From positions 1 to 50,306 of the forward strand of contig CAIOTK010000147.1 of NCBI GenBank assembly GCA_903861185.1: 50,306 nucleotides of DNA. The letters run 5' to 3'. Made by a program: the position numbers and the translations under genes. The notes below the pieces were generated by a model, which saw nothing but the letters and a program-made list of their open reading frames with translations, was not told where the DNA came from and searched no databases. The stretch's first letter is position 1. Every line of letters begins with the position of its first letter. The DNA is from an uncultured Opitutia bacterium. Its GTDB lineage: Bacteria; Verrucomicrobiota; Verrucomicrobiia; Opitutales; Opitutaceae. Shown here one piece after another: positions 1 to 30,712 of the stretch.

Positions 1-77
1 CAGATCGGCTGGTGGCGGCGGGCATACTCGGCCTCGGCGCCGGGATGGACACTCATCACGAAGGCCTTGCGGATCAT
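1..77 (-). CDS. rhaM: L-rhamnose mutarotase, N-terminal fragment (runs off window start)
   Basis: Too short for the ORF track. Reading the minus strand from the ATG at 77 gives MIRKAFVMSVHPGAEAEYAR followed by RHQPI and then a Trp codon cut by the window edge. This is the typical N-terminus of RhaM/YiiL, the enzyme that interconverts alpha and beta L-rhamnose; the family pattern is M-S-V-x-P-G-x-x-x-E-Y-x-R-R-H-x-P-I-W. His22, an active-site residue in the family, is present. The start codon overlaps the stop of the upstream secreted protein gene (ATGA), so the two are probably translationally coupled in one operon starting at the SSS symporter. Only 25 residues are visible; the family assignment is confident, the rest of the gene is unseen. 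Confidence 0.85.
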   Translation of the reverse strand, partial: MIRKAFVMSVHPGAEAEYARRHQPI

Positions 78-1828
78 TTGCGGGCGGCGGAAGCAGGTGG
101 CGGAATCGGAGGCGCGGGCGCGGCCGAGGGCCGTTCGAGCGTGGTCAGGCCGTCGAGGAAGGAATCTCGGGCCGGCGCCGCCGCCGCGGGCGCGGCCGAA
201 CCGGCGGGCGCGGGCGCATCGAGCGAGGCGCGCAGTAATTGGAAACGTTCCCGTTCGGCGGGCTCGCGGGCGAGTTTCACGCCGCGCTCGGCCATTGCCT
301 TCGCCTCGGTCGGGAAGCCGCGGCGGTGGGCGAGCAGCGCCGCCTGCTGGAGCAGCACGAGGTCGCGGGGGAACCGGTTGAGCCCCTCGATCACCACGGC
401 GAGATGCTCCGCCTGCGGGGGGACCGCGGACTGCATCCAAGTCTCGGCGATCAACCCGTAAGCGGCCGCCAGCGGCGGCGGCTGTTTGAGCGCGGCGAAA
501 AGCGGTGTCAGCACGGCGGTGACCTGCGCCTCGTCTAGGCGACCTGCCGGCGCGCCGGGCCGCTGGCGAACCTCCTCCAATCGCAGCCGGGCCAACTCGA
601 CGTGCGCGCGCGCCCGGACCGCCCCGGCCTGCGCCGCCGCCTCCAGGAAACGGCGCGCGCGGTCGCGGCGGCCAGCCTCCAGTTCGTCCAGCCCGAGCGC
701 CGCCAGCAGCCGCGGGTCCCGCTCGCCGCGCACGTAGGGCGCGATCAGGGCGTTGCGCGCGGAGTCACCGTGGCCACCTAGGCGCAGCACCTCACCCTTG
801 ATGCGCCCGACGTCCGCGTCTGCGGCCGCCCGCAGCTCGACCGGCGGCGGCGGAGGCAGCGCCTCGCCCTTCTTCGCCTGGAAACGCGTCGCGTTGTATA
901 CCGTGAACTCGCAGTGGCTCCGGATCTCGAGGGCCATCTGCCGGTAGGTCCGGTTAAAACACTCCTTGAAGAGCTGCTCGCTCAGCGGCTCGGTGCCAAG
1001 GCGCGTCACGAACTGCAGGAAGGGCTTCTGGTACTTCCGGTTGTTCCCGTAAAGGCAGAGGTGGACGAACGCGTAGCACTGGGCCTTCCAGTAACGCGTG
1101 CGCTGGCGCGGCCCCTCCGTCCGCAGCATCTCACCGAGCGGCACGAGGGCCTTGCGCGAAAGGACTTGGTTGAAGTCGCCCAGCTTCTCCGCGCCGAACC
1201 CGTCCCCGATCTGGCCAAAGGTGATCGTCTCGCGCGAGAAATCGATCGCCCCGAACAACTGCACGAGGCCTTCCTCGAACCAAGCCGGCGGCGCCTGCGC
1301 GAGTTGGCGGCGGATCAGGTGGCGGAAGTACTCGATGTAGAACGAGCGGTACGGGTCGCTTTCGACTGTCTCCGCGTCGCTGAAGCGAAGCTCCTGCAGG
1401 GCGAAGTCGACGACGATCGCGGCCCGTTCCGGGTTCTGGAGGAACAGGCTGTTCATCGCGAACCGCTCCGCCCGGTCGCGCACCGGGAGGAACTCGTCGA
1501 ACCCGCGGCCCCGGCCGCAAAGGATGAGCGCCGTCGGCACCGCGACCTGCCCCCGCGTCAGGCCCGGCATAATGATCTCGATCACCTGCTGCAGCAGCAG
1601 GAAGTCTGCGACAAAGCGCCGCGTCTCCCGCTCCGACAGGCGCGAGAGGATCTCAAAGCCCGGGATTTCCGCGTACCGCCACTCCTCGGGCGGCGGGAGC
1701 ACCCGCGAGTCGCTCACCTCGAAGACCGGCAGCTCGACGACGGGACCCGGCGCGGCCGGCGGGGCGGCGGCGGGCAGGCACGGAGCGGCGGCGAGGAGCG
1801 CGGCGAGGAGGAGGGACCGGGATCGCAT
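74..1828 (-). CDS. Secreted peptidase-MA-like protein with degenerate zinc motif (paralog A)
   Basis: 584 residues with a signal peptide (about 1-22), then the lineage-typical PVVELPVFEV segment and a region PEEWRYAEIPGFEIL that is nearly identical in the adjacent paralog. Around residues 163-192 it resembles a gluzincin (peptidase MA / DUF1570-type) core: an E-Y-containing helix followed by PPAWFEEGLVQLF, where these families have P-x-W-x-x-EGLAEYF. The HExxH zinc motif appears as IEYFR (165-169), so both His ligands are missing and catalysis is unlikely. The C-terminal half (about 350-540) is Ala/Leu-rich and looks like TPR helices (for example LAALGLDELEAGRRDRARRFLEAA). Six bases separate it from paralog B, and its stop overlaps the rhaM start. 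Function unknown; secreted or periplasmic. The low-complexity Ala/Pro tail is probably disordered. Confidence 0.85.
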   Translation of the reverse strand: MRSRSLLLAALLAAAPCLPAAAPPAAPGPVVELPVFEVSDSRVLPPPEEWRYAEIPGFEILSRLSERETRRFVADFLLLQQVIEIIMPGLTRGQVAVPTALILCGRGRGFDEFLPVRDRAERFAMNSLFLQNPERAAIVVDFALQELRFSDAETVESDPYRSFYIEYFRHLIRRQLAQAPPAWFEEGLVQLFGAIDFSRETITFGQIGDGFGAEKLGDFNQVLSRKALVPLGEMLRTEGPRQRTRYWKAQCYAFVHLCLYGNNRKYQKPFLQFVTRLGTEPLSEQLFKECFNRTYRQMALEIRSHCEFTVYNATRFQAKKGEALPPPPPVELRAAADADVGRIKGEVLRLGGHGDSARNALIAPYVRGERDPRLLAALGLDELEAGRRDRARRFLEAAAQAGAVRARAHVELARLRLEEVRQRPGAPAGRLDEAQVTAVLTPLFAALKQPPPLAAAYGLIAETWMQSAVPPQAEHLAVVIEGLNRFPRDLVLLQQAALLAHRRGFPTEAKAMAERGVKLAREPAERERFQLLRASLDAPAPAGSAAPAAAAPARDSFLDGLTTLERPSAAPAPPIPPPASAARK

Positions 1829-1834
1829 TAGGGT

Positions 1835-3619
1835 TCAGGGCCGCGACGTAGTGGCCGCGGGGGTGGCGGGCGCGGTGGCGGCCGGCGCAGGCGGCAGGGA
1901 TTCCTTGAGGCCGGTGAAGCGCTGGCGGGCCTCGGGGGTCGGCGCGTACTTCACGCCGTGGTCGGCCAAGGCGTGGGCCGACTGGAGGTCGCCGGCATCG
2001 CGGGCCAGCACCCCAGCTTGGTAGACCGTCCGCAGCCGCGTCGGAAACAGCATCGCGCCCTCGACCATCAGCTTGGCCTCGTCGCGGGTCGGCACAGTCG
2101 CGCTGCGCGCCCAAACGTCGCCCGCGACGTCATAGACGGCCGGCAGCAACGGGGGCTTGCCGTGCGCGAGCTGCAGGGGAGCGAGGACGGCACGGGTCTG
2201 GCTCGGCGCAAGTTGGGTGCCGGCTCCGGGCGCCGCGAGCGCCTCGGCCAGACGCAGGCGGGCGAGCTCTAGGTTGGCCTCGGAGCGCCGGGCGCCCCCG
2301 GCAAAGGCCGCCTCGAGGAACTTGCGCGAGCGGACCGCGTCACCGTGGCGCTGCTCGTACAAACCAAGCGCAGCCAGGAGGTAGGGGTCGCGCTCGCCGC
2401 GGGTGTACGGGGCGACCAACTCCGCCCGGGCCGGTTTTACCCGCCCGGCCAGCACCATCGCCTCCCCCTTGATTCGCCCCACCTCGGCCTGAGTCGCGTC
2501 ACGCAGCTCCACCGGCGCCGGCGGGACGATGACGTCCTCCTTCGATCGATACTCGCGATGCTGATAGACGGTGAAGTCGATGTAGCCGCGCAGCTCGATC
2601 AGCATCTGTTTGTACGTGCGGTTAAAGACCTGCCGGAACAGCTCCTCGCTCGCCGGTTCCCGCGCCAGCCGCTGCAGGAAGGTCGCGAACGGCTTCTGGT
2701 ATTTCCCGTTCAGGCCATAGAGGCACATATGGACGAACGCGTAGGCCTGCTTCGCCCAGCGGTTGTTCCCGAGCACGTTAGTCGCCTCGGAGGAATCGTG
2801 GGCCACAGCGAAAAACTTATCCAGGGGCACCAGCGCCTTGCGTTGGAGCGCCGCGTTAAAGTCCCGATCCTCCGCCGGCGCGCCCGGTAGCGCCATTGAC
2901 TCCGCGCCCTCCTCGCCCGCCCCCAGCGCGTTGATTTGCTGCACCATCGCCGCCTGCGCGGAGATGGTGTTCGGGTCCTCCAGCTTCGCGAAGGAGATCC
3001 AGCGCCGGTCGAATTCCATCCGCATAATGATCTGCGAGAGGCCCTCCTCCACCCACGCCGGCAGCCGCGGTTCGCTGCTGCTCAAAAGGTAGCGCACGTA
3101 CTCGCGGTACAGTTGCTTGTCGTGGTCGACCGAGACCATCCCCGAGTCGGTGCCCGTCGCCGCGTCGTTCAGACCATCGACGTTCAGGACGTTCAAGGTC
3201 GTCGCCTGCAAATCGATCACGATCGCCGTCTGCGCTCCCTGCTTGAGGAAGACGCTGGCGAAGCCCGCGTCGGGCACGTAACGCCCCGCCGGGATGAAGT
3301 CCTGAAACTTTCCCCGCTTCGCACAGAGGATCAGGGACGTGGTCTGCGGGTGGCGCCCGGGTTGGGGCCAGACGTGCCCCAGCGCCTGGCGAAACATTGC
3401 GAAGTCTCGCAGCAGCCGCTGCGTGGCCCGATCCGACGCGTTGCTCAGGATCTCAAAGCCCGGGATTGCCGCGTAACGCCACGCTTCCGGGGGTGGAAGC
3501 TCGCGATTGTCAGTCACCACGAACCGGGGCAGCTCGACGACGGATTCCGCGGCAGCTCCGAGTTCCGCGGCGGCCAGCGGGCCGGCCAGCGCTAGCAGGG
3601 CGACGAGGGTCGATCTCAT
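1835..3619 (-). CDS. Secreted peptidase-MA-like protein with degenerate zinc motif (paralog B)
   Basis: 594 residues from the ATG at 3619. The track start at 3835 adds 72 residues that overlap the symporter 3-prime end and hide the signal peptide MRSTLVALLALAGPLAAAE, so I reject it. It is a tandem paralog of the downstream gene: shared VVELPxF, PPPEAWRYAAIPGFEIL, LxAWVEEGLSQ, an NRTYKQM-type segment, and a TPR-like C-terminal half (LLAALGLYEQRHGDAVRSRKFLEAA). The gluzincin HExxH position reads REYVR (172-176), so the zinc site is lost here too, while the EEGL Glu (191-194) is kept. Relative to paralog A it carries an extra insert around residues 210-245. It probably sits in one operon with the SSS symporter and rhaM. 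Function unknown. Confidence 0.85.
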   Translation of the reverse strand: MRSTLVALLALAGPLAAAELGAAAESVVELPRFVVTDNRELPPPEAWRYAAIPGFEILSNASDRATQRLLRDFAMFRQALGHVWPQPGRHPQTTSLILCAKRGKFQDFIPAGRYVPDAGFASVFLKQGAQTAIVIDLQATTLNVLNVDGLNDAATGTDSGMVSVDHDKQLYREYVRYLLSSSEPRLPAWVEEGLSQIIMRMEFDRRWISFAKLEDPNTISAQAAMVQQINALGAGEEGAESMALPGAPAEDRDFNAALQRKALVPLDKFFAVAHDSSEATNVLGNNRWAKQAYAFVHMCLYGLNGKYQKPFATFLQRLAREPASEELFRQVFNRTYKQMLIELRGYIDFTVYQHREYRSKEDVIVPPAPVELRDATQAEVGRIKGEAMVLAGRVKPARAELVAPYTRGERDPYLLAALGLYEQRHGDAVRSRKFLEAAFAGGARRSEANLELARLRLAEALAAPGAGTQLAPSQTRAVLAPLQLAHGKPPLLPAVYDVAGDVWARSATVPTRDEAKLMVEGAMLFPTRLRTVYQAGVLARDAGDLQSAHALADHGVKYAPTPEARQRFTGLKESLPPAPAATAPATPAATTSRP

Positions 3620-3705: not shown

Positions 3706-5742
3706 TCAGGGCGCAGCCCAGCGGAGCAGCGCGATAAACAGCAGCACGATCGCCCCGGAAAGAGCGCAACAGGCGAGAAAGCCGATGGTGTCGACCCGAT
3801 CCCAGCGGCAGAACTCCCACTGGGAACGCGGCCACAACTTGGTGTGGTCAAAGCGGTCCGGACGACGTTCGGTTTCCGCTAGGGCCGCCTGTTCCAACTC
3901 GGGCGTTGCCCCCACCGGCGTCTTCATCCGCCCGTAGAAGCGGGCGACGCGCGCCGGGGCGGTGGGGCGTGTCACCAGGCTCACGCCGAGCAACACGAGG
4001 AACGGAAACACGGCGTCGAAGAGGAACTGCAGGGTGACGCGCTCGGTGCGGGAGCGGCCGGCTATCTCGACCCCGCAACGGGACAGCAGCCAGCACTCCA
4101 GATTGAAGCGGTTTAGGCCGGGGCCGGCGACCAGCGTGCTGGCGGGGTCTCCCGAACGCGCGCGTACCAGCTGGTTGAAGTAGACCGGGACCGACGCGGC
4201 GCCCGGGGCCCCGGCAGCGACCGTCAACGCCGGGTGATCCCGCAGGCCCGGCAAGTGCGAGGCCGTCCACGGCACCACCAGGACCACCAGCGTCGTGAGG
4301 AGGACGCACCACCACACCCCCGCAGCCGTGACGCGCCGCCAGAAGAACGTGACCAGCACGGCGGCCCCGAAGGGCAGGTTCACCGTGAGCACCAAATTGA
4401 TGATCGAGAAGAAGTCCCGCATCAGCCATCCGGCGACCGTACCGAGGACGAGCACGGCGACGATGGTGCAGCGAGCGAGGAAGACGCCCTGGGCCTCGGA
4501 AAGGTCGGGCCAGATCTGGCGGAACACGTTGCGGACGAAGAGGGAGGAGATGGCGAGCGCCTTGGCCGCGAGGGTGGACATCGTGCCCGCGATGACCCCG
4601 GCGAGCATTAGGCCCGCGAGGCCGGGGCCGAGCAGCCGGTTGGACATCGCGCCCCAAGCCGTATCGGGATCGGAGAGCCCGCCGACCCCGAAGAGCGCCA
4701 CCGCGATCAAGCCGGCGAAGGCCCAGAGGATAATCATCAGCCGCTTGAGGTACGTGCCGGAGACCCCCGAGCGCGCCGCGAACTCATCGCGGGCCGAGCC
4801 GCAAATGCCCATATTGTGGCTCAGGCCCGCATTCTGCACTACGCTCACCAGTAGAATGGCGACGAGACCGAGCACCGAAAACTGCCCGGCGCCCCCAGAC
4901 CCGAAGAGGTCGAAAAAATGGGCGGGGATCTTACGTCCCAACTCGGCCCACCCCCCAATCGCCGCCAGGCCCGTCGGGATCAGGATGACCGAAAAGGCGA
5001 TGATCAGGATGCTCTGCAGCCCCTCGTTGGCCGCGGCCGCCGCCATCCCGCCCATCACGATGTAGGTGCCTACCACCAGCGTGAACACCGCGTAGAACAG
5101 GACGTCGTTGAGCAGAGTCACCTGGCTCGTGAGCTCCCCCCGCGCCGCACGATCGCGCAACTGCTCGAGCCGGGGCTGCGCGGCCGGAGCGAGCCGGCCT
5201 TCCCGCTGCTCGCGTTCGAGCGCCTTCCATTCCCGGTAACCCTCGACCCCGGCGCGCTCGACCCCAGTCCAAGCAGCCTCCGGCTTCACCACCAGCGAGG
5301 AAGCGATCTTGTAAGCGGTGACGTTCCCGAATCCGAGGAACACGCACGCCACCAGGATCTGAAACGTGGCGTAGAAGAGGCTCAACCCGCGGCTGGCGAA
5401 TCGCTCTTCAAACAGGTCCGAGAGCGTGGTGAGCCGCACCCGGCGGAACCAAACGTTCATGAACCAGAAGTACGGGTTCATAAAGACCGTCTGGAATGAC
5501 AGCCAGCAGCCCGGGGCCCCCTGCTGGTAGACGAAGCTCGCGGTGCTCACCGCCCCCTGCGGCTCAGTCGAGTTCCCGAAGTTCAGAAAGAATTGGTACA
5601 ACTTACCCAGCCCGCGCCCCGCGAGAAAGAATCCTTCCTCGGACTTTGCCGCCCGCGACGCCCGATATCCGAGATAAAGGACCGCGAGCAGGTAGGCGGC
5701 GATGATCGCCACATCGAGGACGTGCAGGGAGCCAAGGAGCAT
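3706..5742 (-). CDS. Sodium:solute symporter (SSS family), probable sugar importer
   Basis: 678 residues, longer than the usual 500-550 of the SSS family. The track begins at a TTG (5745), but the adjacent ATG (5742) is the likelier start. Family features: an N-terminal helix VLDVAIIAAYLLAVLYLGYRAS, FFLAGRGLGKLYQFFLNFGNST near the first Na+-binding helix, TTLSDLFEERF, and a dense run of transmembrane helices to about residue 500. Two hydrophilic insertions explain the extra length: a charged helical segment (about 155-205, EWKALEREQREGRLAP) and a soluble loop (about 505-575). One more helix closes the C-terminus. It is the first gene of the minus-strand operon leading to rhaM and is divergent from a LacI-type regulator, which suggests inducible uptake of a sugar such as rhamnose. 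The substrate is inferred from context only. Confidence 0.85.
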   Translation of the reverse strand: MLLGSLHVLDVAIIAAYLLAVLYLGYRASRAAKSEEGFFLAGRGLGKLYQFFLNFGNSTEPQGAVSTASFVYQQGAPGCWLSFQTVFMNPYFWFMNVWFRRVRLTTLSDLFEERFASRGLSLFYATFQILVACVFLGFGNVTAYKIASSLVVKPEAAWTGVERAGVEGYREWKALEREQREGRLAPAAQPRLEQLRDRAARGELTSQVTLLNDVLFYAVFTLVVGTYIVMGGMAAAAANEGLQSILIIAFSVILIPTGLAAIGGWAELGRKIPAHFFDLFGSGGAGQFSVLGLVAILLVSVVQNAGLSHNMGICGSARDEFAARSGVSGTYLKRLMIILWAFAGLIAVALFGVGGLSDPDTAWGAMSNRLLGPGLAGLMLAGVIAGTMSTLAAKALAISSLFVRNVFRQIWPDLSEAQGVFLARCTIVAVLVLGTVAGWLMRDFFSIINLVLTVNLPFGAAVLVTFFWRRVTAAGVWWCVLLTTLVVLVVPWTASHLPGLRDHPALTVAAGAPGAASVPVYFNQLVRARSGDPASTLVAGPGLNRFNLECWLLSRCGVEIAGRSRTERVTLQFLFDAVFPFLVLLGVSLVTRPTAPARVARFYGRMKTPVGATPELEQAALAETERRPDRFDHTKLWPRSQWEFCRWDRVDTIGFLACCALSGAIVLLFIALLRWAAP

Positions 5743-5804
5743 CAAGGGGGAGGCGCGGCGGGCCTAGGGGCAGTTCCGGAGGCGAGGTCGACCCTCTGCG
5801 CACC

Positions 5805-5823: not shown

Positions 5824-5863
5824 CATCGCCGGCGACGGTCGAAGTGTGCGGACAGTCCGACCC

Positions 5864-6895
5864 ATGCCGTCCGCCGCCCCCACCCTCCGCACCCTCGCGC
5901 GGGACCTCGGCCTGTCCCGCACCACCGTGTCCGACGCGTTGCGCGGCTCGGCGCGGGTGGATCCCCGGACCGCAGAGCGGGTGCGGCGCGCCGCGGAGGC
6001 GGCAGGTTACCGGCGCAATCCGCTGGCCGGCGCCCTAATGTCAGAGCTGCGGCGCTCGCGCGGGGGCGAGTTCCGCGGCGTCCTCGCGGCGGTGGACTTC
6101 CACGAGGCCCAGCGCCCGGAGGGAGCGGCCGCGTACCACGGCAAGCTCGCCCAAGGGCTGGGCGAGCGAGCCGCCGAACTGGGCTTTAAGCTCGAGCGCT
6201 TCACCGCGGGCACCGAGGGGCTGAGCGTGCCCCGGCTCGGATCCATCCTGCAGTCGCGGGGCATCAGCGCGGTCGCCCTGCTGCCCTCCTGGGTCCCACC
6301 GGACCTTTCCGCCCTCGACTGGACCCACTTCACCGGCGTTTACACAGACTATCTGATCGAGCGGCCTCGATTGCACGCTGTCTGCTCGGACCAGTACCGC
6401 TCGCTCCTCGGTGCGCTGCGGCAACTCCAAGCCCGGGGCTACCGGCGACCCGGTCTCTACCTGCAACGCCGGCAGGACGAGCGCCTGCAATTCCGCTGGA
6501 GCGCCGCGTTCCGTGCATTTCAGGAGGCCCTACCCCGCGCCGACCGGACCCGCCCCCTCGTGGTCGAGGCGTATGCGCAGCCGGCCTTCACCACCTGGTT
6601 CCAGCGGGAACGTCCGGATGTCGTCCTAAGCCACCACTCGCCCGCAATCGGATGGATGGAGGCGGCCGGCGCCCGCCTGCCCAAGACCCACGGTTTCGCC
6701 TGCCTGAACCTCGACATGGCCGACCGGCCGTGCGCGGGCCTCGACCTGCAGCCCAGCCTGCTCGGCGCCCGCGCCGCCGAGCTGCTGATCGCCCAACTGC
6801 AACGTAACGAAACGGGCATCCCCGCCTGGCCATCGACCACGATGATCTCCGCCCGCTGGACCGAGGGCCCAACCCTGCGGCCAGCGGGCAGCTGA
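5864..6895 (+). CDS. LacI/GalR-family transcriptional regulator
   Basis: 343 residues from the ATG at 5864; the track uses a GTG six codons earlier that adds nothing family-like. Residues about 8-60 form the LacI helix-turn-helix: TLRTLARDLGLSRTTVSDALRG, then RVDPRTAERVRRAAEAAGYRRNPLA, including the hinge region. The remainder is a periplasmic-binding-protein-like ligand domain that is more divergent than usual (ending ...GARAAELLIAQLQRNETGIP). It is divergent from the SSS symporter operon that ends in rhaM, so it probably represses that operon and responds to a sugar. The effector cannot be read from sequence. Confidence 0.88.
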   Translation: MPSAAPTLRTLARDLGLSRTTVSDALRGSARVDPRTAERVRRAAEAAGYRRNPLAGALMSELRRSRGGEFRGVLAAVDFHEAQRPEGAAAYHGKLAQGLGERAAELGFKLERFTAGTEGLSVPRLGSILQSRGISAVALLPSWVPPDLSALDWTHFTGVYTDYLIERPRLHAVCSDQYRSLLGALRQLQARGYRRPGLYLQRRQDERLQFRWSAAFRAFQEALPRADRTRPLVVEAYAQPAFTTWFQRERPDVVLSHHSPAIGWMEAAGARLPKTHGFACLNLDMADRPCAGLDLQPSLLGARAAELLIAQLQRNETGIPAWPSTTMISARWTEGPTLRPAGS

Positions 6896-19911: not shown

Positions 19912-21162
19912 ATGAAACTCAAATTCCTCCTCGCCTCCGGCGCGATCGCGCTAGGCCTCTCCAGCTCCGGGCTCCGGTCCGCCGAAACCGTGAAGGTGGG
20001 CGTGCTCCACTCGCTCTCCGGAACGATGGCGATCAGCGAAACTTCGCTCCGCGACATCCTCCTGTTCACCTTCGACGAGATCAATGCCCGCGGCGGTGTT
20101 TTGGGCCGCAAAATTGAGCCGGTCGTTGTGGACGGCGCCTCGAACTGGCCGCTCTTTGCCGAAAAGGCCAAGCAACTTCTCGAGCAGGATAAAGTGGCGG
20201 TCACCTTCGGCTGCTGGACCTCCGTCTCCCGGAAATCGGTCCTGCCCGTCTACGAGCGGAACAACGGCCTGCTCTTCTACCCCGTGCAGTATGAGGGCGA
20301 GGAGGAGTCCCAGAACGTGGCTTACACCGCCGAGGCGGTGAATCAGCAGGCGACCCCGGCCGTCGATTACTACCTGAAGGAGGGCAAGAAGAAGTTCTAC
20401 CTCCTCGGCTCCGACTACGTCTATCCCCAGACCACGAACCTAGTCCTCCTCGAGTACCTCCTCAGCAAGGGCGTTCCGCTGGCGAACATCGGGGGCGGCT
20501 TCCGGCGCGATGGCGCGGGCAAGATCATCTCCGCAGGAAAGTACACCCCGTTCGGCCACACCGACTACCAGCAGATTGTCGCGGAGATCAAACAGTTCGC
20601 CGCCTCGGGCGACGCCTGCGTCATCTCCACCCTGAATGGCGACACCAACGTGCCGTTCTTCAAGGAGTACGCCGCCTCCGGTCTGACCGCCGAGACGTGT
20701 CCCGTGGTGTCCTTCTCCATCTCGGAAGACGAGTTCCGCGGCCTGCCGGCGGATAAGTTGGTCGGCCAACTCGGCTGCTGGACCTACTTCCAGTCGCTGA
20801 ACACCCCCGCGAACAAGAAGTTCGTCGCTGACTTCCAAGCCTGGCTCAAGAAGAGCAGCGTACCCGGACTGGTGAAGGAGGGTCGCGTCACCTGCTCCCC
20901 GATGGTGCTGAGCTACGTGGGCGTCTACCTCTGGAAGGCCGCCGTCGAGAAGGCCGGCTCGTTCGAAGTCGACAAGGTGCGGGCAGCTTGGAAGTCGGGC
21001 CTCACTTTTGACGGTCCCGGCGGCAAGGTCACCACGCAGAAGAATATGCACCTGACCAAGAACGTCTACATCGGTGAGACGCGGGCGGACGGTCAGTTCA
21101 AGATCGTGAGCTCATTCGACCACGTTTACGGCGAGCCCTGGCTGAAGGGGAAGTTCAAGTAA
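19912..21162 (+). CDS. urtA: Urea ABC transporter, substrate-binding protein
   Basis: 416 residues with an N-terminal export signal ([20 protein letters not shown]). It is a type I periplasmic binding protein of the branched-chain amino acid / amide family. UrtA signatures are [73 protein letters not shown] and [14 protein letters not shown]. It captures urea in the periplasm for UrtBC. It is first of urtABCDE, followed by a strong terminator, so it is probably made in excess over the membrane components. The leader is pyrimidine-rich (TTTCCTCCCTC) with no Shine-Dalgarno sequence. Confidence 0.97.
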
Positions 21163-21189
21163 GCCTCGCGGGCCGTAAACCCACCACCG

Positions 21190-21220
21190 GGGCGGACGCC
21201 GATAACGTCCGCCCTTTTTT
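21190..21220 (+). terminator. Intrinsic terminator between urtA and urtB
   Basis: An 8-bp stem GGGCGGAC / GTCCGCCC with a 9-base loop is followed directly by six T, 27 bases after the urtA stop. Since urtB follows with little room for a promoter, partial read-through probably supplies the permease genes. Confidence 0.85.
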
Positions 21221-21253
21221 CTGGCACGATTCCAGCATTCCCCCCGGCACTCG

Positions 21254-23035
21254 ATGAAGGCCTTTCTGCTCCTCCCCTGCCTGCTGGCGCTCCTGTTCGC
21301 CACGCCGGGCCGGGCGGCTGCCACCGAGAACCCGCGCGCCCTCATCGCCCGCGCCGCGACCGAGGCGCAGCCAGCCCAAGCCCGGCAACTCCTCGCCGCC
21401 GCCGTGGGCCGGGCGGACGAATCGGTGGCTCCGCTGCTGGATGCCTGGCGGCGGGACGCCCTGTTCCTCCACGCCCAGGCCGATGGCGGGCGCGTCGCGG
21501 TGTTGCTGACGGGCGAGAAGGATGAACGCGGGGCCCAATCCGCCCTGCGGGCCGCCGATGGCCAGCCGTTGCAGGACGAGGCCGGTCGCCCGGTGCGATT
21601 GGTGGCGGCTGACCTCCCCGCGGCCGAGCACGACGCGAGCCTGCGCCGAACGATGAAGGCCATCCTAGATTTGGCGGAACTGGCGGCGGTGGATCCGACC
21701 CGCCGCGCCCGCTCGGTCCGAAACCTCGGCCTCGCGCAAGACGCGGAGAAGCTGCCGGTGCTGCTCGCGCGGGAGTCGGTCGAATCGGCGCCGGAGGTCC
21801 GCCGGGCGCTCCGGGAGGCGATCGCGCTGCTTCGGTTAAAGGACCCCCGGGAGGAGATCCGGGTCGCCGCACTGCAGGAACTGCAGGCCGTCTCCTCGCT
21901 GGCCACGTCGGATTTACTGGCCCGCGTCGTCCAGGAAGAGGCGGCGGCGGGCAACCGGCTCGCCCTGGAGGCGGCCCGGAGGGCGCAGCAGGCGGTCGAG
22001 TGGCACCGCACTAAAGTAGATTTCGCCGGCACCCTGTTCCGCGGCCTGAGCCTAGGCAGCATCCTCCTCGTAGCCGCCCTAGGGCTGGCCATCACCTTCG
22101 GGCTGATGCGCGTGATCAATATGGCGCACGGGGAGCTGATCGCGGTCGGGGCCTACACGACCTACCTCACCCAAGCGGTGTTCGGCACCGGGATGACCCT
22201 CCCCTGCTTTGGCCTGAGCGTCCCGATCCCCGGCCTCCAATTCTCCGGCGCCGCGCGGGAGGCGTATTTTATCGCGGCCCTGCCCGCCAGCTTCCTGGCG
22301 GCCGCCACCGTCGGCCTTCTACTGGAGCGGGGCATTATCCGTTTCCTCTATCGGCGTCCCCTCGAGAGCCTCCTCGCCACCTGGGGCGTCTCCCTCGTGT
22401 TGCAGCAGGCCTTCCGCCTCATCTTCGGCGCGAACAACGTCCAGGTTTCGAGCCCTTCCTACCTCAGCGGCAACTGGCTGGTCGGGGATGTAATCCTCGG
22501 TTGGAACCGCGTCTTCGTGATCGGCTTCGCTCTGCTCATCGTACTCGGTATGGGTCTGGTTCTAACGCGCACCTCCCTGGGCCTCCTGATCCGCGCCTCG
22601 ATGCAGAACCGCACGATGGCGGCGTGCCTAGGGGTCCGCACCGAGCGAGTAAACGCGCTCACGTTCGCCCTCGGGAGCGGCCTGGCTGGGCTGGCGGGGG
22701 CCTTCCTGAGCCAGATCGGCAATGTGGGCCCCTCACTCGGCCAGGGCTACATCATCGACTCGTTTATGGTAGTCGTAGTGGGCGGGGTGGGCAGTCTCGG
22801 CGGCACTATCCTAAGCGCGTTCGGCATCGGAGGCATCGATCAGGTACTGCAGCAATATCTGCCGCTGGTCGCACCCGGGCTCGCCTGGGTGCCCGGCATC
22901 GGCGGCTTCCTCCAGAATCTCGCCCAGGACGCCGCCGTTTTCGGCAAGATCCTCGTTCTCGCCGGCATCATCCTCTTCCTGCAATGGCGGCCTGCCGGAC
23001 TGTTCGCGCCGCGCAGCCGCTCCTTGGACGAATGA
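21254..23035 (+). CDS. urtB: Urea ABC transporter, permease UrtB
   Basis: 593 residues. A signal peptide (MKAFLLLPCLLALLFATPGRAA) and a periplasmic helical region (about 25-255, HEAT-like, LRLKDPREEIRVAALQELQAV) precede the LivH-type permease core. That two-part build is known for long-form UrtB. The core begins FRGLSLGSILLVAALGLAITFGLMRVINMAHGELIAVGAYTTYL and contains NRTMAACLGVRTERVNALTFALGSGLAGLAGA and GQGYIIDSFMVVVVGGVGSLGG. It forms the membrane channel with UrtC in the inner membrane. Its stop overlaps the urtC start (ATGA). Confidence 0.95.
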   Translation: MKAFLLLPCLLALLFATPGRAAATENPRALIARAATEAQPAQARQLLAAAVGRADESVAPLLDAWRRDALFLHAQADGGRVAVLLTGEKDERGAQSALRAADGQPLQDEAGRPVRLVAADLPAAEHDASLRRTMKAILDLAELAAVDPTRRARSVRNLGLAQDAEKLPVLLARESVESAPEVRRALREAIALLRLKDPREEIRVAALQELQAVSSLATSDLLARVVQEEAAAGNRLALEAARRAQQAVEWHRTKVDFAGTLFRGLSLGSILLVAALGLAITFGLMRVINMAHGELIAVGAYTTYLTQAVFGTGMTLPCFGLSVPIPGLQFSGAAREAYFIAALPASFLAAATVGLLLERGIIRFLYRRPLESLLATWGVSLVLQQAFRLIFGANNVQVSSPSYLSGNWLVGDVILGWNRVFVIGFALLIVLGMGLVLTRTSLGLLIRASMQNRTMAACLGVRTERVNALTFALGSGLAGLAGAFLSQIGNVGPSLGQGYIIDSFMVVVVGGVGSLGGTILSAFGIGGIDQVLQQYLPLVAPGLAWVPGIGGFLQNLAQDAAVFGKILVLAGIILFLQWRPAGLFAPRSRSLDE

Positions 23036-24117
23036 ATACGCCTGCTCGCCAAGTCCCCCGGCTGGAAACCATCCTCCTCCTCGCGCTGGGTGTGGCCCTC
23101 GTCGTCGTGTTACCCTTGCTGCACGCTGCCGGGCTCCTCAGCAGCTTTACGCTTGGCGTCTGGGGCAAGTACCTGTGCTACGCCATGCTCGCCCTCTCCG
23201 TGGATCTGCTCTGGGGGCACACCGGCCTGCTTTCGCTGGGGCAGGCGCTCTTCTTCACCCTCGGCGGCTACCTGCACGGGATGTACCTGATGCGGATGAT
23301 CGGTGAGCTAGGGCAGTACCGGAAACCGATCCCCGACTTCCTCGTGTTCCTCGGCTGGGAACGGCTGCCCGCCTTCTGGGAACCCTTCGCGAGCTTTCCC
23401 TTCGCGGTCGCGATGGTGTTCCTCATCCCCGGCTTGGTCGCCTTCGGCTTCGGGTACCTCGCTTTCCGGTCCCGAGTGAAAGGCGTGTACTTCTCGATCC
23501 TGACCCAGGCGCTGACCTACGCGGCCTCGATCATGTTCTTCCGCAACAACCTCCTCCTCGGAGGCAACAACGGGTTCACCGACTTCAAGTTCATTCTCGG
23601 CCATCGCCTCGATGACCCCACGACCACCCGCGCGCTCTACCTCGCCTCCGCCGTCGCCCTCTTCCTCGCGGTGGCTTTCTGCCGCTGGCTGCGGGGCACC
23701 AAATTCGGCCTCGTGCAGCACGCCATCCGCGACGGCGAAAACCGGGTGCTCTTCAGCGGCTATGCGGCGGTCCACTTCAAGCTCTTCGTTTTCGTGGTCG
23801 CCGCCCTTATCGCCGCCGTCGGCGGGGCCCTTTACACCCCCCAGGTCGGCATCATCAACCCAGGAGAAATGCAGCCCGAGAAGTCCCTCGAAGCTGTCGT
23901 CTGGGTCGCCCTCGGCGGCCGCGGAACCCTGCTGGGGCCCGTCCTCGGTGCCGTCAGCGTTAACGCCCTCAAGAGCTGGGCCACGCGCGCCTACCCGGAC
24001 CTCTGGCTCATCCTCCTCGGCGGCATCTTCGTGCTCGCTGTCCTCTTCCTCCCCGGAGGGCTGGTCAGCTTGCCTGCCCGCCTGCGCGCCCTGTTCTCCC
24101 GGCGCCCCCCTTCCTGA
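23032..24117 (+). CDS. urtC: Urea ABC transporter, permease UrtC
   Basis: 361 residues from ATG 23032, which overlaps the urtB stop; the track ORF starting at 22501 is a read-through of the wrong frame. A LivM-type permease: SSFTLGVWGKYLCYAMLALSVDLLWGHTGLLSLGQALFFTLGGYLHGMYLM, then FRNNLLLGGNNGFTDF, which is typical of UrtC. The conserved EAA-like loop region is GTKFGLVQHAIRDGENRVLFSGY, followed by GEMQPEKSLEAVVWVALGGRGTLLGP. It pairs with UrtB as the second half of the urea channel. Confidence 0.95.
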   Translation: MNTPARQVPRLETILLLALGVALVVVLPLLHAAGLLSSFTLGVWGKYLCYAMLALSVDLLWGHTGLLSLGQALFFTLGGYLHGMYLMRMIGELGQYRKPIPDFLVFLGWERLPAFWEPFASFPFAVAMVFLIPGLVAFGFGYLAFRSRVKGVYFSILTQALTYAASIMFFRNNLLLGGNNGFTDFKFILGHRLDDPTTTRALYLASAVALFLAVAFCRWLRGTKFGLVQHAIRDGENRVLFSGYAAVHFKLFVFVVAALIAAVGGALYTPQVGIINPGEMQPEKSLEAVVWVALGGRGTLLGPVLGAVSVNALKSWATRAYPDLWLILLGGIFVLAVLFLPGGLVSLPARLRALFSRRPPS

Positions 24118-24118
24118 G

Positions 24119-24895
24119 ATGCCTCATCCCCTGCTCACCGTGGAAGACGTGGCCAAGGCCTACGACGGCTTTCAGGCCATCTCGAACCTCAACTTCTACC
24201 TGTTCGCGGGCGAACTCCGCACCGTCATCGGTCCGAACGGAGCGGGCAAATCGACCTTCTTCGACCTCCTCACCGGCCGGGCCAAGCCGGACCGCGGTCG
24301 GCTCGAATTCGGCACGGATCCCGCCGCCTCCCACGACCTCACTCGGCTCTCCGAGCACGAGATCAGCCGCCTAGGCATCGGTCGAAAGTTCCAGACGCCG
24401 AGCGTCTACGCGGATCACTCCGTCTGGGAAAACCTTCTGCTCTCCCTGCGCGGCCCCCGGGGGGTCTTCGCCGCCCTGTTTCAGCGAACCGGTCCGGCCG
24501 ACCGTGCCCGCATCGACGACCTTCTAGAAATGGTCCGCCTCGGCGACAAGCGCCACTGGCGCGCCGGACTCCTCTCCCACGGCGAGAAACAGTGGCTGGA
24601 ACTGGGGATGCTCCTCGCGCAGGAGCCCAAGGTGCTCCTGATCGACGAGCCCGCCGCCGGCATGACCGACGAGGAAACCCACCGGACCGGCGAACTCCTC
24701 CTCTCCCTCGCCGGCCGCCACAGCCTCATCGTCATCGAGCACGATATGACCTTCGTGAAGCAAATCGCGCAGCAGGGGCAGGTGACGGTGCTCCACCAGG
24801 GGAGCGTGCTATGCGAAGGTCGCTTCGAGGAGGTGCAGTCCGACCCCAAAGTGCGCGAGGTCTACCTCGGCCGAGGCAAACACGACCGGCGATGA
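24119..24895 (+). CDS. urtD: Urea ABC transporter, ATP-binding protein UrtD
   Basis: 258 residues from ATG 24119, one base after the urtC stop. A LivG-type ATPase with Walker A GPNGAGKST (38-46), KFQTPSVYADHSVWENLLLSL, the variant signature LSHGEKQWLELGMLLAQEP and Walker B VLLIDEPAAGMTDEE. The LSHGEKQWLEL signature in place of LSGGQ is characteristic of UrtD/LivG proteins. It energises urea import with UrtE on the cytoplasmic face. Its stop overlaps the urtE start. Confidence 0.96.
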   Translation: MPHPLLTVEDVAKAYDGFQAISNLNFYLFAGELRTVIGPNGAGKSTFFDLLTGRAKPDRGRLEFGTDPAASHDLTRLSEHEISRLGIGRKFQTPSVYADHSVWENLLLSLRGPRGVFAALFQRTGPADRARIDDLLEMVRLGDKRHWRAGLLSHGEKQWLELGMLLAQEPKVLLIDEPAAGMTDEETHRTGELLLSLAGRHSLIVIEHDMTFVKQIAQQGQVTVLHQGSVLCEGRFEEVQSDPKVREVYLGRGKHDRR

Positions 24896-25665
24896 CCCCG
24901 CTCCTCGAAATATCCGGGCTGGAAACGCACCTCGGGGGCTCGCGCATCCTCCGCGGGGTGAACCTTGCCGTAGGTCCGGGAGAAATTGTCGCCCTGATGG
25001 GCCGCAACGGGGTCGGCAAGAGCACGACCCTGCGCTCCATCACGGGCGTGGTTCCGGTGCACGCGGGCAGCATCCGCTTCGCCGGTCGCGAGCTGCGGGA
25101 GCTGCCGCCGGACGCAAGGGCGCGGGCCGGGATCGGCTATGTCCCCCAAGGGCGCGACATCTTTCCCCATCTCACCGTGGAGGAGAATCTGCGGGTAGGC
25201 CTCGTGGCGCACGGGCGCCGGGGGCCCGCCGCGCGCGCGGCCCTCGATCGAGTCTTCGCCCTGTTTCCCGTCCTCCGGGACATGCTCGGACGTAAGGGGG
25301 GCGTGCTTTCCGGAGGTCAGCAGCAGCAGCTCGCGATCGGACGCGCCCTGCTCACCGATCCGCGGCTCCTCATCCTCGACGAGCCCACGGAAGGGATTCA
25401 GCCATCGATTATCGAGCAGATCGGGGACACCCTGCGCCGTCTGCGCCAAGAGGGCTTGGAACCCGACCCGACGCACGAGATCCGCCACGCGTTACAGGAG
25501 CTCAAACGCGAGGGTCGGTTGGCCATTCTCCTCGTCGAACAATTCGTCGACTTCTGCCGCGAATGCGCGGATCGCTTCTACGCGATGGACCGCGGGGCGG
25601 TGGTCGCCGCCGGCACGGTCCAGGAGCTCACGGACGAGGTGGTGCGCCGCCACCTTCAGGTCTGA
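24892..25665 (+). CDS. urtE: Urea ABC transporter, ATP-binding protein UrtE
   Basis: 257 residues from ATG 24892, in a 4-base ATGA overlap with urtD. A LivF-type ATPase with Walker A GRNGVGKST (37-45), IGYVPQGRDIFPHLTVEENLRVGL, signature LSGGQQQQLAIGRALLTDPRLLILDEPTEGIQPSI and the D-loop region. The insertion EGLEPDPTHEIRHALQELKREGRLAILLVEQ is longer than in typical LivF. Last gene of the importer; ureA follows after 12 bp, so transport and hydrolysis genes are probably co-transcribed. Confidence 0.96.
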   Translation: MTPLLEISGLETHLGGSRILRGVNLAVGPGEIVALMGRNGVGKSTTLRSITGVVPVHAGSIRFAGRELRELPPDARARAGIGYVPQGRDIFPHLTVEENLRVGLVAHGRRGPAARAALDRVFALFPVLRDMLGRKGGVLSGGQQQQLAIGRALLTDPRLLILDEPTEGIQPSIIEQIGDTLRRLRQEGLEPDPTHEIRHALQELKREGRLAILLVEQFVDFCRECADRFYAMDRGAVVAAGTVQELTDEVVRRHLQV

Positions 25666-25677
25666 CTCCTTTCCTCC

Positions 25678-25980
25678 ATGCACCTGACCCCGCGCGAACG
25701 AGAGAAACTCCTAGTCGTGGTAGCCGCCGATCTGGCGCGCCGCCGGCAGGCCCGCGGCCTAAAACTGAACCACCCCGAGGCCGTGGCCATCATCACCAGC
25801 GAGATTCTTGAGGGCGCCCGGGACGGGCGTAGCGTGGCCGAACTGATGAGCCTCGGCACCAAAATCCTCACGACCGCGGACGTGATGCCCGGAGTGCCCA
25901 GCCTGATCCCCGAGGTGCAGGTCGAGGCGACGTTCCCCGATGGCACCAAACTCGTCACCGTCCATCAGCCCATCCGCTGA
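25678..25980 (+). CDS. ureA: Urease gamma subunit
   Basis: 100 residues, full family length. [50 protein letters not shown] and [31 protein letters not shown] are the standard UreA sequence. It is the smallest of three structural subunits of the (alpha-beta-gamma)3 enzyme that hydrolyses urea to ammonia and carbamate in the cytoplasm. The leader CTCCTTTCCTCC lacks a Shine-Dalgarno sequence. Three bases separate it from ureB. Confidence 0.98.
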
Positions 25981-25983
25981 ACC

Positions 25984-26298
25984 ATGATCCCCGGAGAAAT
26001 CATTCCAGCCGACGGCCCGGCGCTCCCCGCCAATTCCGGTCTCCCCACCTTACGCCTCGAAGTCACCCACACGGGCGACCGGCCGGTGCAGGTCGGCTCC
26101 CACTACCACTTCGCTGAGACCAACTCTGCGCTCCGCTTCGACCGCTCCGCCGCCCGCGGCTTCCGGCTCAACATTCCCGCCGGCACCGCCGTCCGATTCG
26201 AAGCGGGCGACACCCGGGAAGTGGAGCTGGTTGCCCTCGCCGGCCGCCGGGAGGTCCACGGCCTGAACGCGCTCATCAACGGCCGCCTCGATCCCTGA
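25984..26298 (+). CDS. ureB: Urease beta subunit
   Basis: 104 residues. Typical UreB sequence [12 protein letters not shown], then [65 protein letters not shown]. Structural subunit that packs against UreC and holds the active-site flap. Separate ureA and ureB genes match the usual bacterial three-subunit layout. Three bases separate it from ureC. Confidence 0.98.
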
Positions 26299-26301
26299 CC
26301 C

Positions 26302-28065
26302 ATGCCCCTGCACCTTTCCCGTCGGCAATACGCCGAGATGTTTGGCCCCACGGTCGGCGACCGCGTGCGGCTCGCCGACACCGACCTCTTCGTCGAGGTG
26401 GAGCGCGACCTCGTGGCCGTGGCCGGCTACGGTAACGAAATCAAGTTCGGCGGCGGCAAGGTCATCCGCGACGGGATGGGACAGTCGCCCACGGCCCGCG
26501 ATGCCGAGTGTCTCGACCTCGTGATCACCAACGCCCTCATCCTCGATCCGCGCTTGGGGGTGGTGAAGGCCGACATTGGCATTAAACACGGCCGCATCGT
26601 GGGCATCGGGCACGCGGGTAACCCCGGCATCCAATCCGGACTCGGCTCGGCCTACCCCGATCCTGCGACGGGCCGCCTCGACCCAATGACCGTAGGCGCG
26701 GCCACTGAGGTCATCGCCGGCGAAGGCCGCATCATCACAGCCGGCGGCATCGACACCCATATCCACTTTATTTGTCCGCAGCAGATCGACGAGGCCCTGA
26801 GTTCCGGTGTGACCACGCTCCTCGGAGGCGGCACGGGGCCAGCCCACGGTACCCTCGCCACCACCTGCACCCCGGGCCGCTGGAACCTGCATCGGATGCT
26901 GGAGGCCGCCGAGGCCTATCCGGTAAACCTCGGTTTCCTCGGCAAGGGGAACTGCAGCACCCCAGACCCGCTGCGGGAACAGATCGTCGCTGGGGCCATC
27001 GGGCTCAAACTCCACGAGGACTGGGGGACCACGCCCGCCGCCATCGACACCTGCTTGGGCGTGGCGGAAGAACTGGATGTTCAGGTGGCCATCCACACCG
27101 ACACGCTCAATGAATCCGGCTACCTCGACGACACCCTCCGGGCGTTTCGCGGCCGCACGATTCACACGTTCCACTCGGAAGGAGCCGGCGGCGGGCACGC
27201 CCCAGACATCATCCGCGTCTGCGGGGAGCCGAACGTCCTGCCTTCCTCCACCAACCCCACGCGGCCGTTCACGGTCAATACTGTGGATGAGCACCTCGAT
27301 ATGCTGATGGTCTGCCATCATCTGGACTCCAAGATCCCGGAGGATGTCGCCTTCGCTGAGTCGCGGATCCGGCCCGAGACCATCGCGGCGGAGGATCGGC
27401 TCCACGATCTCGGCGCCATCTCGATTATGTCGTCGGACTCCCAGGCCATGGGCCGAGTCGGGGAGGTGATTCTCCGGACCTGGCAGACGGCCCACAAGAT
27501 GAAGGTCCAGTTCGGCGCCCTAGCCGATCAAACCCATCCCGCCGCGGATAACTTCCGGGTGCTACGCTATCTCGCCAAATACACGATCAACCCGGCCGTG
27601 GCGCACGGCATCAGCCACCTCGTCGGTTCGGTCGCCGTGGGTCAGCTGGCGGATCTGGTGATCTTCCGGCCGGCCCTTTTCGGGGTGAAGCCGGAGACTG
27701 TGCTCAAGGGTGGCTTTATCGCCTGGGCAAACATGGGGGACCCAAATGCTTCGATCCCCACCCCGCAGCCGACGTTCTACCGGCCCCAATTCGGCGCGGC
27801 GGGAGCGGCCCTCGGGTCCACCTGCCTGACCTTCGTGAGCGCTGCCGCCCTGCAGGAGGGTAGCCTCGCTGGGCTTAGCCTGCGCCGGCGCCTCGAGCCG
27901 GTCCGTCGCTGCCGCCAGTTGGGTAAGCGGGATATGGTGCTCAACGCCGCGCTGCCACGGATCGAAGTCGATCCGGAAACTTACGAGGTACGCGCAGACG
28001 GCGAACTCCTGCGCTGTGAACCCGCCCGGGAACTGCCGCTGGCCCAACGCTACTTCTTGTTCTAG
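26302..28065 (+). CDS. ureC: Urease alpha (catalytic) subunit
   Basis: 587 residues, about 20 more than the Klebsiella enzyme. All catalytic residues are present at a constant offset of +19: nickel ligands H153 and H155 (GGIDTHIHF), carbamylated K236 (GLKLHEDWG), H265 ([10 protein letters not shown]), H291 ([15 protein letters not shown]) and D379 ([13 protein letters not shown]). The flap Cys338-His339 is in MMVCHHLD. Most of the extra length is an insertion of about 13 residues before the first metal motif (near [13 protein letters not shown], about 111-130). The C-terminus [10 protein letters not shown] is canonical. It should be an active nickel urease once matured by UreDEFG. Confidence 0.98.
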
Positions 28066-28090
28066 GCCCAGCCGCATTGTTCACTGGTCT

Positions 28091-28552
28091 ATGCAGCTGA
28101 TCACCGGCCCCCTAGCCTCCAGCGACCCCAACTTGCCGGAGATTGCCGTCCCGGTGGATCGTCAGACCCTCGCGAAGCGCCTGTGGCGCGGCACAGCCGA
28201 GGACGGGCGGGAATTCGGTTGTGAGCTCGCGTCTCCACTGCGCCACGGCGAAGTCCTGCAGCAAACCGCCTCCGCCCGCTACGTCGTGCGCCAGACGGAG
28301 GAACCCGTAGTCGAGGTGGACCTCAACCTCGCCCCCTCGGCGGCGGCGGGCATTGGCTGGGCCATCGGCAACCTGCACTTGGAGCTCGCGGCCGAGCCGC
28401 AGCGTCTGCTCGCCCCAGATGAACCCGCGGTGCGGCAGCTGCTCGAACGCCTGAAGGTCCCATTCCGGACCGGCCGGGCCGTCTTTCGACCCGGCCGGTT
28501 CAGTCGCGGCGCCCAGCCCAGCCATGAACTCGGCCCCAGCCACCGGCATTGA
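28091..28552 (+). CDS. ureE: Urease accessory protein UreE (nickel metallochaperone)
   Basis: 153 residues from ATG 28091 (MQLITGPLASSDPN); the track start at 28016 reads back into ureC in another frame. UreE binds Ni2+ and hands it to UreG. The metal-binding core is GWAIGNLHLELAAEPQRLLAPDEPAVRQLLERL, equivalent to the conserved GNxH segment. The C-terminus is short with a modest His cluster ([10 protein letters not shown]) rather than the long poly-His tail of Klebsiella. Its end overlaps the ureF start by 29 bases. Confidence 0.92.
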   Translation: MQLITGPLASSDPNLPEIAVPVDRQTLAKRLWRGTAEDGREFGCELASPLRHGEVLQQTASARYVVRQTEEPVVEVDLNLAPSAAAGIGWAIGNLHLELAAEPQRLLAPDEPAVRQLLERLKVPFRTGRAVFRPGRFSRGAQPSHELGPSHRH

Positions 28553-29243
28553 GGAGATCCCGGCCTGGTTGCCCGGCCTCCTGCAAACCTGCGACTCTGC
28601 CTATCCCACCGGAGGCTACGCCCACTCCGGGGGCCTCGAAGGTCTGGTCCAGGCAGGAGTTGTGCGGGATGCGGCGTCGCTCGGGCGGCATCTTCAGGAG
28701 ATCATCCTCCCGGCGCTCCGCCAGGTTGATCTGCCCCTCGCCGCCCAAGCCTGGCGGGCGCTCGCGCGGCCGGACTGGGAACGCGTGGGCGAACTCTGCT
28801 TTCTTTCCTCCGCGCTCCGGCCTGCCCGGGAGTTGCGGCTGGCGGCGGAAAACACCGGCCGGCAGCGGGTCGAGCTTCTCGCCCACTTGCACCCTGACAG
28901 CCTCGCCACCGCCTTTCACGCCGAGGCGGTGCGGGGCCGCTGGCCCGGCGCTCACCCGATCGCAGCCGCACTGGAAGGACGCCTCTGGGGCGCCCCCGAA
29001 CAGGCCGTCCTCGTGAGCCTCGGGTACAGCACCCTCGCGGCCTCCCTCGCGGCCGCGATGAAGCTCCTGCGGATTGGGCAGAATGCCGCCCAGGGGTTGC
29101 TCACCACCGCCCTGCGCCAATTACCCGAAGCCATCACCACCGCCCGCCAACTCCGGGATCCGGAGATGGGTTGGTTTAACCCCTGGCTTGAAATCGCCTC
29201 CGCCCGCCATGAATCCGCCGACCACCGTATGTTCATCTCCTAA
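28524..29243 (+). CDS. ureF: Urease accessory protein UreF
   Basis: 239 residues. An all-helical protein that acts with UreD and UreG in the pre-activation complex, promoting nickel delivery and lysine carbamylation. Family motifs are [27 protein letters not shown] near the N-terminus (the S-x-x-x-P-x-G-x-x-x-x-S-x-G-L-E pattern) and [15 protein letters not shown] in the C-terminal half. It overlaps ureE upstream and ureG downstream (35 bases), suggesting coupled translation. Confidence 0.93.
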
Positions 29244-29889
29244 CCCGGGCCGTCGCCCGCCCCGCATCGGCATCGGGGGCCCCGTGGGCTCCGGTAAAAC
29301 CATGCTTTGCCTGCGCCTTTGTCAGGCCCTCCGCGATCGCCTCTCGCTCGGCGTGGTGACCAACGACATCTACTGCTCCGAGGACGCGGATTTTCTGCGC
29401 CAGCAGAGTGCCCTCGAGCCGGGGCGCATTCTCGGGGTCGAAACTGGCGGCTGCCCGCACACCGCGATCCGCGACGACACCACGATGAACGAGCAGGCCT
29501 GCCGTGACCTCGAAGCCCGCTTTCCCGACCTACAACTGCTGCTGGTCGAGAGCGGCGGCGACAACCTCACCGCCACCTTCTCACCCGAACTCGTGGACGC
29601 GTTCATCTATGTGATCGACGTGGCCGAGGGGGATAAGATGCCCCGCAAGGGAGGGCCGGCCATCCGGCACAGCGATCTTCTGCTCATCAACAAGATCGAT
29701 CTCGCCCCGCTAGTCGGGGCCGACCTCGACGTGATGGATCGGGATGCGCGCCGCCAACGGGGGACCCGGCCGTTTCTGTTCTGCGACCTCAAACGGCATC
29801 ATAACCTGCCGGCGGTGCTCGACTGGATCGAACACCACGTGCTCTTCGCGACCGCAGCCCGCGCCGCAGAGCCCCCGCGCCATGGCTAA
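29209..29889 (+). CDS. ureG: Urease accessory protein UreG (GTPase)
   Basis: 226 residues from ATG 29209, inside the ureF 3-prime end; the track ORF begins 45 codons too early. A SIMIBI GTPase that powers nickel insertion. The P-loop is GGPVGSGKT (23-31), the metal-binding CPH motif is in [18 protein letters not shown], the Walker B-like [19 protein letters not shown] follows, and [13 protein letters not shown] gives guanine specificity. The N-terminal 18 residues before the core are Pro/Arg-rich and non-conserved. It overlaps the ureD start by 8 bases. Confidence 0.95.
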
Positions 29890-30712
29890 GCTCACCGGCC
29901 ATCTCGACTTCCGCGCCGTACCGCGGGCGGATGGCCAGACCGTCCTAAAGGACCAGTCCTTCCGGGCCCCCTTTCATCTCAGCAAACCGTACTGGGATTC
30001 GGAGGCCCGCATCCTAATCGTCCAAGTCGTCAATCCGACGGCCGGAATCCTCGCCGGGGACGAGCTCGACGTGCGGATCGAGGTGGAGCGAGGAGCCGCT
30101 CTCATTGTTACCACGCCCGGGGCCAGTCGGGTCTTCACAATGCGCCACGGCGCGGCCGTGGCCCGCCAGCAGATCTCCGTCGCGGACGGCGCGTGGCTCG
30201 AATGGATTCCAGAGCCACTGGTGACGCACCGCGAATCCACGTTTCGGCAAATCACCCGGCTTGAACTCGGTGCCAGCGCGGCCGTTTTCTACGCGGATCA
30301 ATGGATGCCCGGACGGCTGGGCCACGGGGAGGCGTGGGCCTGGCGTCAGCTGGAACTGCTCCTCGAGGTCCGGCAAGCCAACCGGCTCGTGCTCTGCGAG
30401 CGAATGGCGGCCTCCGGCCCGGAACTCCGGTCAATTGCCGCCCTACACGGATCCGGGCCCGAAGCGTGTTTCCTGAACGCAGTGCTGGCCGGCCCCGCGC
30501 TCGGCCCCACGGAAGGAACGTGGCGGAACGAGTTGGAGCGTCTCCAACAGCCCGGCATCTGGATCGGGGTGAGCAGCTTAGCCGGTCAGGCCGCTTGGAC
30601 TCTCAAAGTGGTCACGGAAAACGCGCGCCGCTTGCGGGAAACCGTCCGCGCCATCCGTGCGGCGCTAGCGCCGCACCTGCCTTACTTGGCGACAGACTTG
30701 CGCAAGCTCTGA
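29882..30712 (+). CDS. ureD: Urease accessory protein UreD (UreH)
   Basis: 276 residues from ATG 29882 ([10 protein letters not shown]); the track start at 29744 lies inside ureG in another frame. UreD is the scaffold that carries UreF and UreG to the urease apoprotein. Signatures are [56 protein letters not shown] and [24 protein letters not shown]. Many bacteria place ureD first (ureDABC); here it closes the cluster in the order A-B-C-E-F-G-D. Its last 31 bases overlap a convergent small membrane protein gene. Confidence 0.93.

Follow-up and report, generated by a model that had tools for sequence, protein, structure and literature searches.

Copies A and B, two tandem genes of a rhamnose-type sugar operon at the start of a 50,306-nucleotide stretch of Opitutia DNA (the window), probably encode non-catalytic periplasmic proteins composed of a pseudo-gluzincin and a TPR-like domain, most likely acting as ligand- or partner-binding accessories of methyl-pentose/pectin-type carbohydrate uptake. 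A gluzincin-type fold, the loss of zinc ligands relative to HExxH-containing relatives, purifying selection and a conserved operon were all obtained by computation. Loss of catalysis in both proteins is well supported; their part in sugar uptake would most likely be one of binding or scaffolding. A and B belong to a large, conserved and unnamed family of dead peptidases that probably serve as binding or scaffold proteins. Since rare pseudoenzymes carry out other chemistry, a protein that lacks protease activity may still be catalytic in some other way. In the proposed arrangement the periplasmic body of A and B would combine a gluzincin domain devoid of zinc with a superhelix of TPR type. The pair would share its expression with rhaM, and in most cases also with an SSF sugar symporter, under control of a LacI-type regulator, and both would work as capture or scaffold components that bind a ligand or a partner protein.

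Gene layout and conserved neighbourhood

The original prediction had placed two paralogous reading frames between a symporter and rhaM, with the second coupled to rhaM by an ATGA, and this layout was borne out. Copy A (1835..3619, minus strand; 594 aa) and copy B (74..1828, minus strand; 584 aa) are 46% identical to each other. Each is annotated as an exported pseudo-gluzincin and TPR-like protein, A from its ORF and translation, an AF2 model and its orthologs, and B from its ORF and translation, an AF2 domain model and Foldseek. The 3′ end of B reads ...AAATGA, such that the B stop codon overlaps the rhaM ATG (ATGA at 77-74). Because the window begins at a contig end, just the 5′-terminal 77 bases of rhaM, a gene of the L-rhamnose mutarotase family (1..77, minus strand), are visible. 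The gene was assigned from this overlap and from an ortholog match to PF05336; in orthologous loci a full rhaM is the next gene (L124:15743-16057, PF05336, E 2.9e-32). Upstream of A lies a gene for an SSF sodium:solute symporter (3706..5745, minus strand; PF00474, E 5.2e-19), and beyond it a divergent gene for a LacI-type regulator (5846..6895, plus strand), which scored barely over the PF00356 cut-off and occupies the same place in related loci. Elsewhere in the window, a gene run at 19912-30712 (plus strand) resembles a urea-type ABC transporter with urease and accessory genes, the translations having been judged by eye.

Conservation of the neighbourhood was counted from a table of 35 loci retrieved by protein search, several of the losses being contig ends. 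A and B were adjacent in 28 of the 35 loci, followed by rhaM in 27 and preceded by the SSF gene in 21. The order was B-A in L027, L028 and L039, and A occurred without B in L031 and L126. Six related loci contained A-B-rhaM without an adjoining SSF gene; rhaM is therefore the closer partner and the link to the transporter is looser. Other neighbouring genes encoded a GDSL hydrolase, a PLP-dependent enzyme, a glyoxalase-family protein and, in L031, a GH28 pectinase. A paralog in L041 adjoined UxaC (uronate), a sugar-isomerase-like TIM barrel and a GFO/IDH oxidoreductase, and a further family member (L132:8067-9815, plus strand) was found within a murein-recycling cluster (MR_MLE epimerase, GH3, amidase, SIS, AnmK). 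Thus the carbohydrate link recurs without fixing the substrate. The genes near A and B and the clusters of these other paralogs speak for the reading of A and B as uptake accessories; the differences between the clusters count against it.

The zinc site, the fold and their maintenance

An EEGL segment after P-A-W, together with REYVR in A and IEYFR in B at the HExxH position, had been proposed as the remnant of a gluzincin active site. Both were seen in the translations, A reading YREYVRYLL then PAWVEEGL and B reading YIEYFRHLI then PAWFEEGL, and were mapped by alignment to intact relatives. The HExxH position corresponds to residues 172-176 of A (3092..3106, minus strand) and 165-169 of B (1322..1336, minus strand), and the third-ligand segment to residues 187-194 of A (3038..3061, minus strand) and 181-188 of B (1265..1288, minus strand). 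The first His was absent in 49/49 A and B orthologs, and with it the HExxH of clan MA(E). Both Glu residues of the EEGL segment were kept in 29/29 A and 20/20 B orthologs, the third-ligand Glu aligning with EGLA of the intact relatives.

Replacement of both His ligands held for the two window copies and, at the first position, for all orthologs, but a second His persists in part of the A lineage: position 176 is His in 13 of the 29 A orthologs and Arg in the other 16. Likewise, the central Glu was kept in both window copies and throughout A (E173 29/29, as was R172) but not across the family, since Glu166 of B was found in 12/20 orthologs and was Ala or Gln in 8/20. The first position in the 20 B orthologs was occupied by Lys, Ala, Ile, Arg or Leu, and R169 was invariant (20/20). 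Three features are fixed across A and B: the first His is missing, one ligand position is occupied by Arg (R172 in A, R169 in B), and the EEG Glu is retained. The Arg may substitute for the charge of the zinc. In a group comprising L069-L072, L043 and L004, the EEG Glu was lost as well.

The A and B alignments were also searched for another His pair that could complete a zinc site. The only His at least 90% conserved in both was H297/H256, which is not kept throughout the C group; the intact enzymes also possess a counterpart of it, so no replacement pair was found. The Tyr of the FYAQSW motif of the intact enzymes is not kept in A or B.

The survey for intact copies, a search with the degenerate-family profile, returned seven distant Opitutaceae proteins with an intact HExxH, which aligned motif to motif with the degenerate proteins (VIYHEYVHLLL...PLWLDEGLAEVFS over QLYREYVRYLL...PAWVEEGLSQIIM). 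Comparison of the degenerate and intact alignments by hhalign gave a probability of 99.9 (E 1.4e-32, 280 columns). Together, these results indicate that the mapping of REYVR and IEYFR onto HExxH is not due to chance. The DUF1570 cut-off was exceeded by 4/7 of the HExxH relatives, all four scoring above 22 bits, and A and B gave no match to DUF1570 (PF07607) at E<=1. In a quick maximum-likelihood tree, 75 degenerate rows were separated from the seven HExxH rows plus L119 by a branch with 99% SH-aLRT support, a split limited by long branches. L119 (L119:1419-3221, minus strand), placed on the HExxH side, has GRYMR at the HExxH position, apparently an independent loss. Relatives occurred in 14/241 genomes of the phylum, 12 of the 14 in one GTDB family, and one A-like protein (L068) came from another family of the same order. 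Two fusions were noted: a degenerate relative joined to an FGE-sulfatase domain (L084:493-3294, minus strand; PF03781), and an HExxH relative joined to a TonB C-terminal domain and Sel1 repeats (L115:462-2849, minus strand; PF03544).

Structure prediction used an alignment of 59 relatives containing zero HExxH sequences. The AF2 model of full-length A had a pLDDT of 87 and a pTM of 0.82, and that of B residues 27-350 a pLDDT of 86.9 and a pTM of 0.84. The B domain was folded alone because TPR proteins dominated the Foldseek results for full-length A, with aminopeptidase N and tricorn factor F3 further down. In searches of the PDB, the B domain matched clostridial and Grimontia M9 collagenases at the top (4ar1, E 8.5e-6, prob 1.00, TMq 0.46), and most of the matches below these were M1 aminopeptidases. 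Indeed, the predicted B domain has the gluzincin-type three-dimensional fold of clan MA(E) by both AF2 and Foldseek, rather than an unrelated one; TM-scores near 0.46 indicate a similar fold and no close kinship. A TPR-like helical domain was predicted at residues 377-574 of A (1898..2491, minus strand) from AF2 helices, Foldseek TPR matches and profile matches to TPR proteins, and at about residues 337-534 of B (227..820, minus strand) from the alignment with A and a weak TPR_14 match. Helical repeats of the TPR type are thus indicated for A by Foldseek and profile, Pfam TPR matches being weak in A and B and stronger in relatives. Scanned against Pfam and NCBIfam, A and B gave only weak TPR matches; a PDB sequence search returned nothing useful with A alone and only TPR proteins with the A2 profile.

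Between A orthologs NG86 dN/dS was 0.05-0.22, between B orthologs it was 0.07-0.36, and no stops were present in the compared copies. Both genes are therefore maintained, and these values agree better with the original proposal, in which the fold is retained and the zinc chemistry lost, than with decay. Decay, with A and B as the last traces of a lost peptidase, would agree with the missing active-site residues, but the dN/dS range (0.05-0.36), the lack of stops and the conserved operon refute it, leaving this reading extremely unlikely. It is quite unlikely that A and B are still metallo-enzymes with a different site, or another hydrolase. The strong conservation of H297/H256, of the EEG Glu and, in A, of E173, and retention of the second His by 13/29 A orthologs, count in its favour, but the first His is missing from every one of the 49 orthologs, neither A nor B has a second conserved His, and the FYAQSW Tyr has gone. 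Regulation of a sister peptidase that is active within the same cell is a theme known for inactive metallopeptidase homologs (PMC11266112), and some genomes of the family do contain HExxH relatives; none was found in the window's genome (94% complete), which makes this role very unlikely for A and B. Apart from A and B, the A4 profile gave only weak and partial hits in that genome, confined to the TPR-like part of the profile, and PF07607 gave nothing over its cut-off.

The N-terminal element

A and B start with Sec-like signals, and a lipobox-like motif was found in just 5/101 family members; the signal-like N-termini suggest a periplasmic location. The mature N-termini carry VELPKFVVTDSR, a sequence similar to the TonB-box segment that TonB-dependent receptors (TBDTs) of the same genome have before the plug. 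The putative TonB-box-like element spans residues 27-39 of A (VVELPRFVVTDNR; 3503..3541, minus strand), after the signal peptide and in a low-pLDDT tail, and residues 30-42 of B (VVELPVFEVSDSR; 1703..1741, minus strand). Degenerate members have VVELPKFVVTDSRELPPPE right behind the signal peptide, and the element was absent in the six HExxH relatives scored. The receptors of the same genome, which yielded 92 Plug matches, carry IKLEKFEVTGSHIKR, VRLEAFVVTGSNIRR and similar segments ahead of the plug. One such receptor, with the pre-plug segment IKLEKFEVTGSHIKR and a Plug match, is encoded within the window (33991-36939, minus strand).

Pre-plug segments of TBDTs from this genome, 14 in all (residues ahead of the Plug match), served to build a matrix, which was applied with a score threshold of >=10. 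This was reached by 57/128 degenerate members, 0/6 HExxH relatives and 0/224 non-exported proteins, and by 14/222 other exported proteins, most of which were the training TBDTs; shuffled N-termini reached it in 0.35%. Judged from sequence, the resemblance of the element to TBDT pre-plug segments is real. In FecA-type receptors an STN domain lies ahead of the TonB-box element. Two paralogs from different genera (L071:1111-4341 and L082:913-3207, both plus strand) likewise have an STN domain (PF07660) ahead of the TonB-box-like element. The same post-signal motif (TQLDPMKVTAS) occurs in an exported Kelch-like protein (L125:9724-10728).

Should the element be a genuine TonB box, the unstructured VELPKFVVTDSR segment would bind TonB, and A and B could be SusD-like periplasmic helpers of TonB-dependent receptors. 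Consistent with this are the matrix scores, confined to degenerate members when set against the HExxH relatives and non-exported proteins, the STN domains of L071 and L082, the TonB_C domain carried by the HExxH relative L115, and the abundance of Plug matches in the genome. The idea draws solely on the likeness of a short segment, however, and no TBDT gene lies within the A-B cluster; occurrence of the element in the Kelch-like protein likewise speaks against it, since certain exported proteins may share the element as a general trait. We regard a helper role of this kind as doubtful, with perhaps a minority chance of being right. On a related and similarly tentative evolutionary scenario, a bacterial family of exported pseudo-peptidases could have gained the N-terminus of a receptor, with a TonB box and in some members STN. 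The inactive gluzincin/TPR body would thereby be linked to the TonB system, giving a non-receptor periplasmic TonB-box protein.

Significance and comparison with known systems

Under the preferred reading of A and B as binding accessories, the family would record the conversion, across a clade, of a zinc peptidase into a protein that is conserved but non-catalytic. With intermediates in which the site is partly degraded (REYVH in A orthologs, REYVR and IEYFR), it would provide a clean case for the dismantling of an active site under purifying selection. Together with the receptor-like N-terminus, the placement in sugar operons suggests that Verrucomicrobiota have an exported, so far unstudied component of glycan uptake. 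Literature searches on DUF1570, on TonB box and TPR in Verrucomicrobia and on rhaM in Verrucomicrobia returned nothing on the A/B family; in marine Verrucomicrobiota, one study reported no SusCD machinery (PMC8857213).

The peptidase domain of M9 bacterial collagenases (ColG, ColH, ColT) is the top structural match of the B domain, but is only 11-14% identical to it, and differs from A and B in retaining HExxH and in its accessory domains. M1 aminopeptidases (APN, IRAP, ERAP1, tricorn F3), the next-best structural matches, share the combination of a gluzincin domain with a helical C-terminal domain, whereas A and B lack the catalytic residues, show no sequence similarity to them and have a different N-terminal region. 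DUF1570 (PF07607) and Peptidase_MA_2 (PF13485) are the homologous domain, matched by HExxH relatives of A and B; A and B themselves reach neither model, have lost the zinc ligands and have gained the N-terminal element. With STN-containing TonB-dependent receptors, the likeness lies in the N-terminal element behind the signal peptide, and in the STN domain of two A/B paralogs, but Pfam scans and the model revealed no Plug or barrel in A or B. The pseudo-metallopeptidases are inactive peptidase folds that have been conserved and reused for binding, as reviewed in PMC11266112, in which nothing was found on gluzincins, collagenases or the MA clan. A and B resemble them in having a conserved inactive peptidase fold that would be reused for binding, and differ from them in forming a family of bacterial proteins linked with sugar operons.
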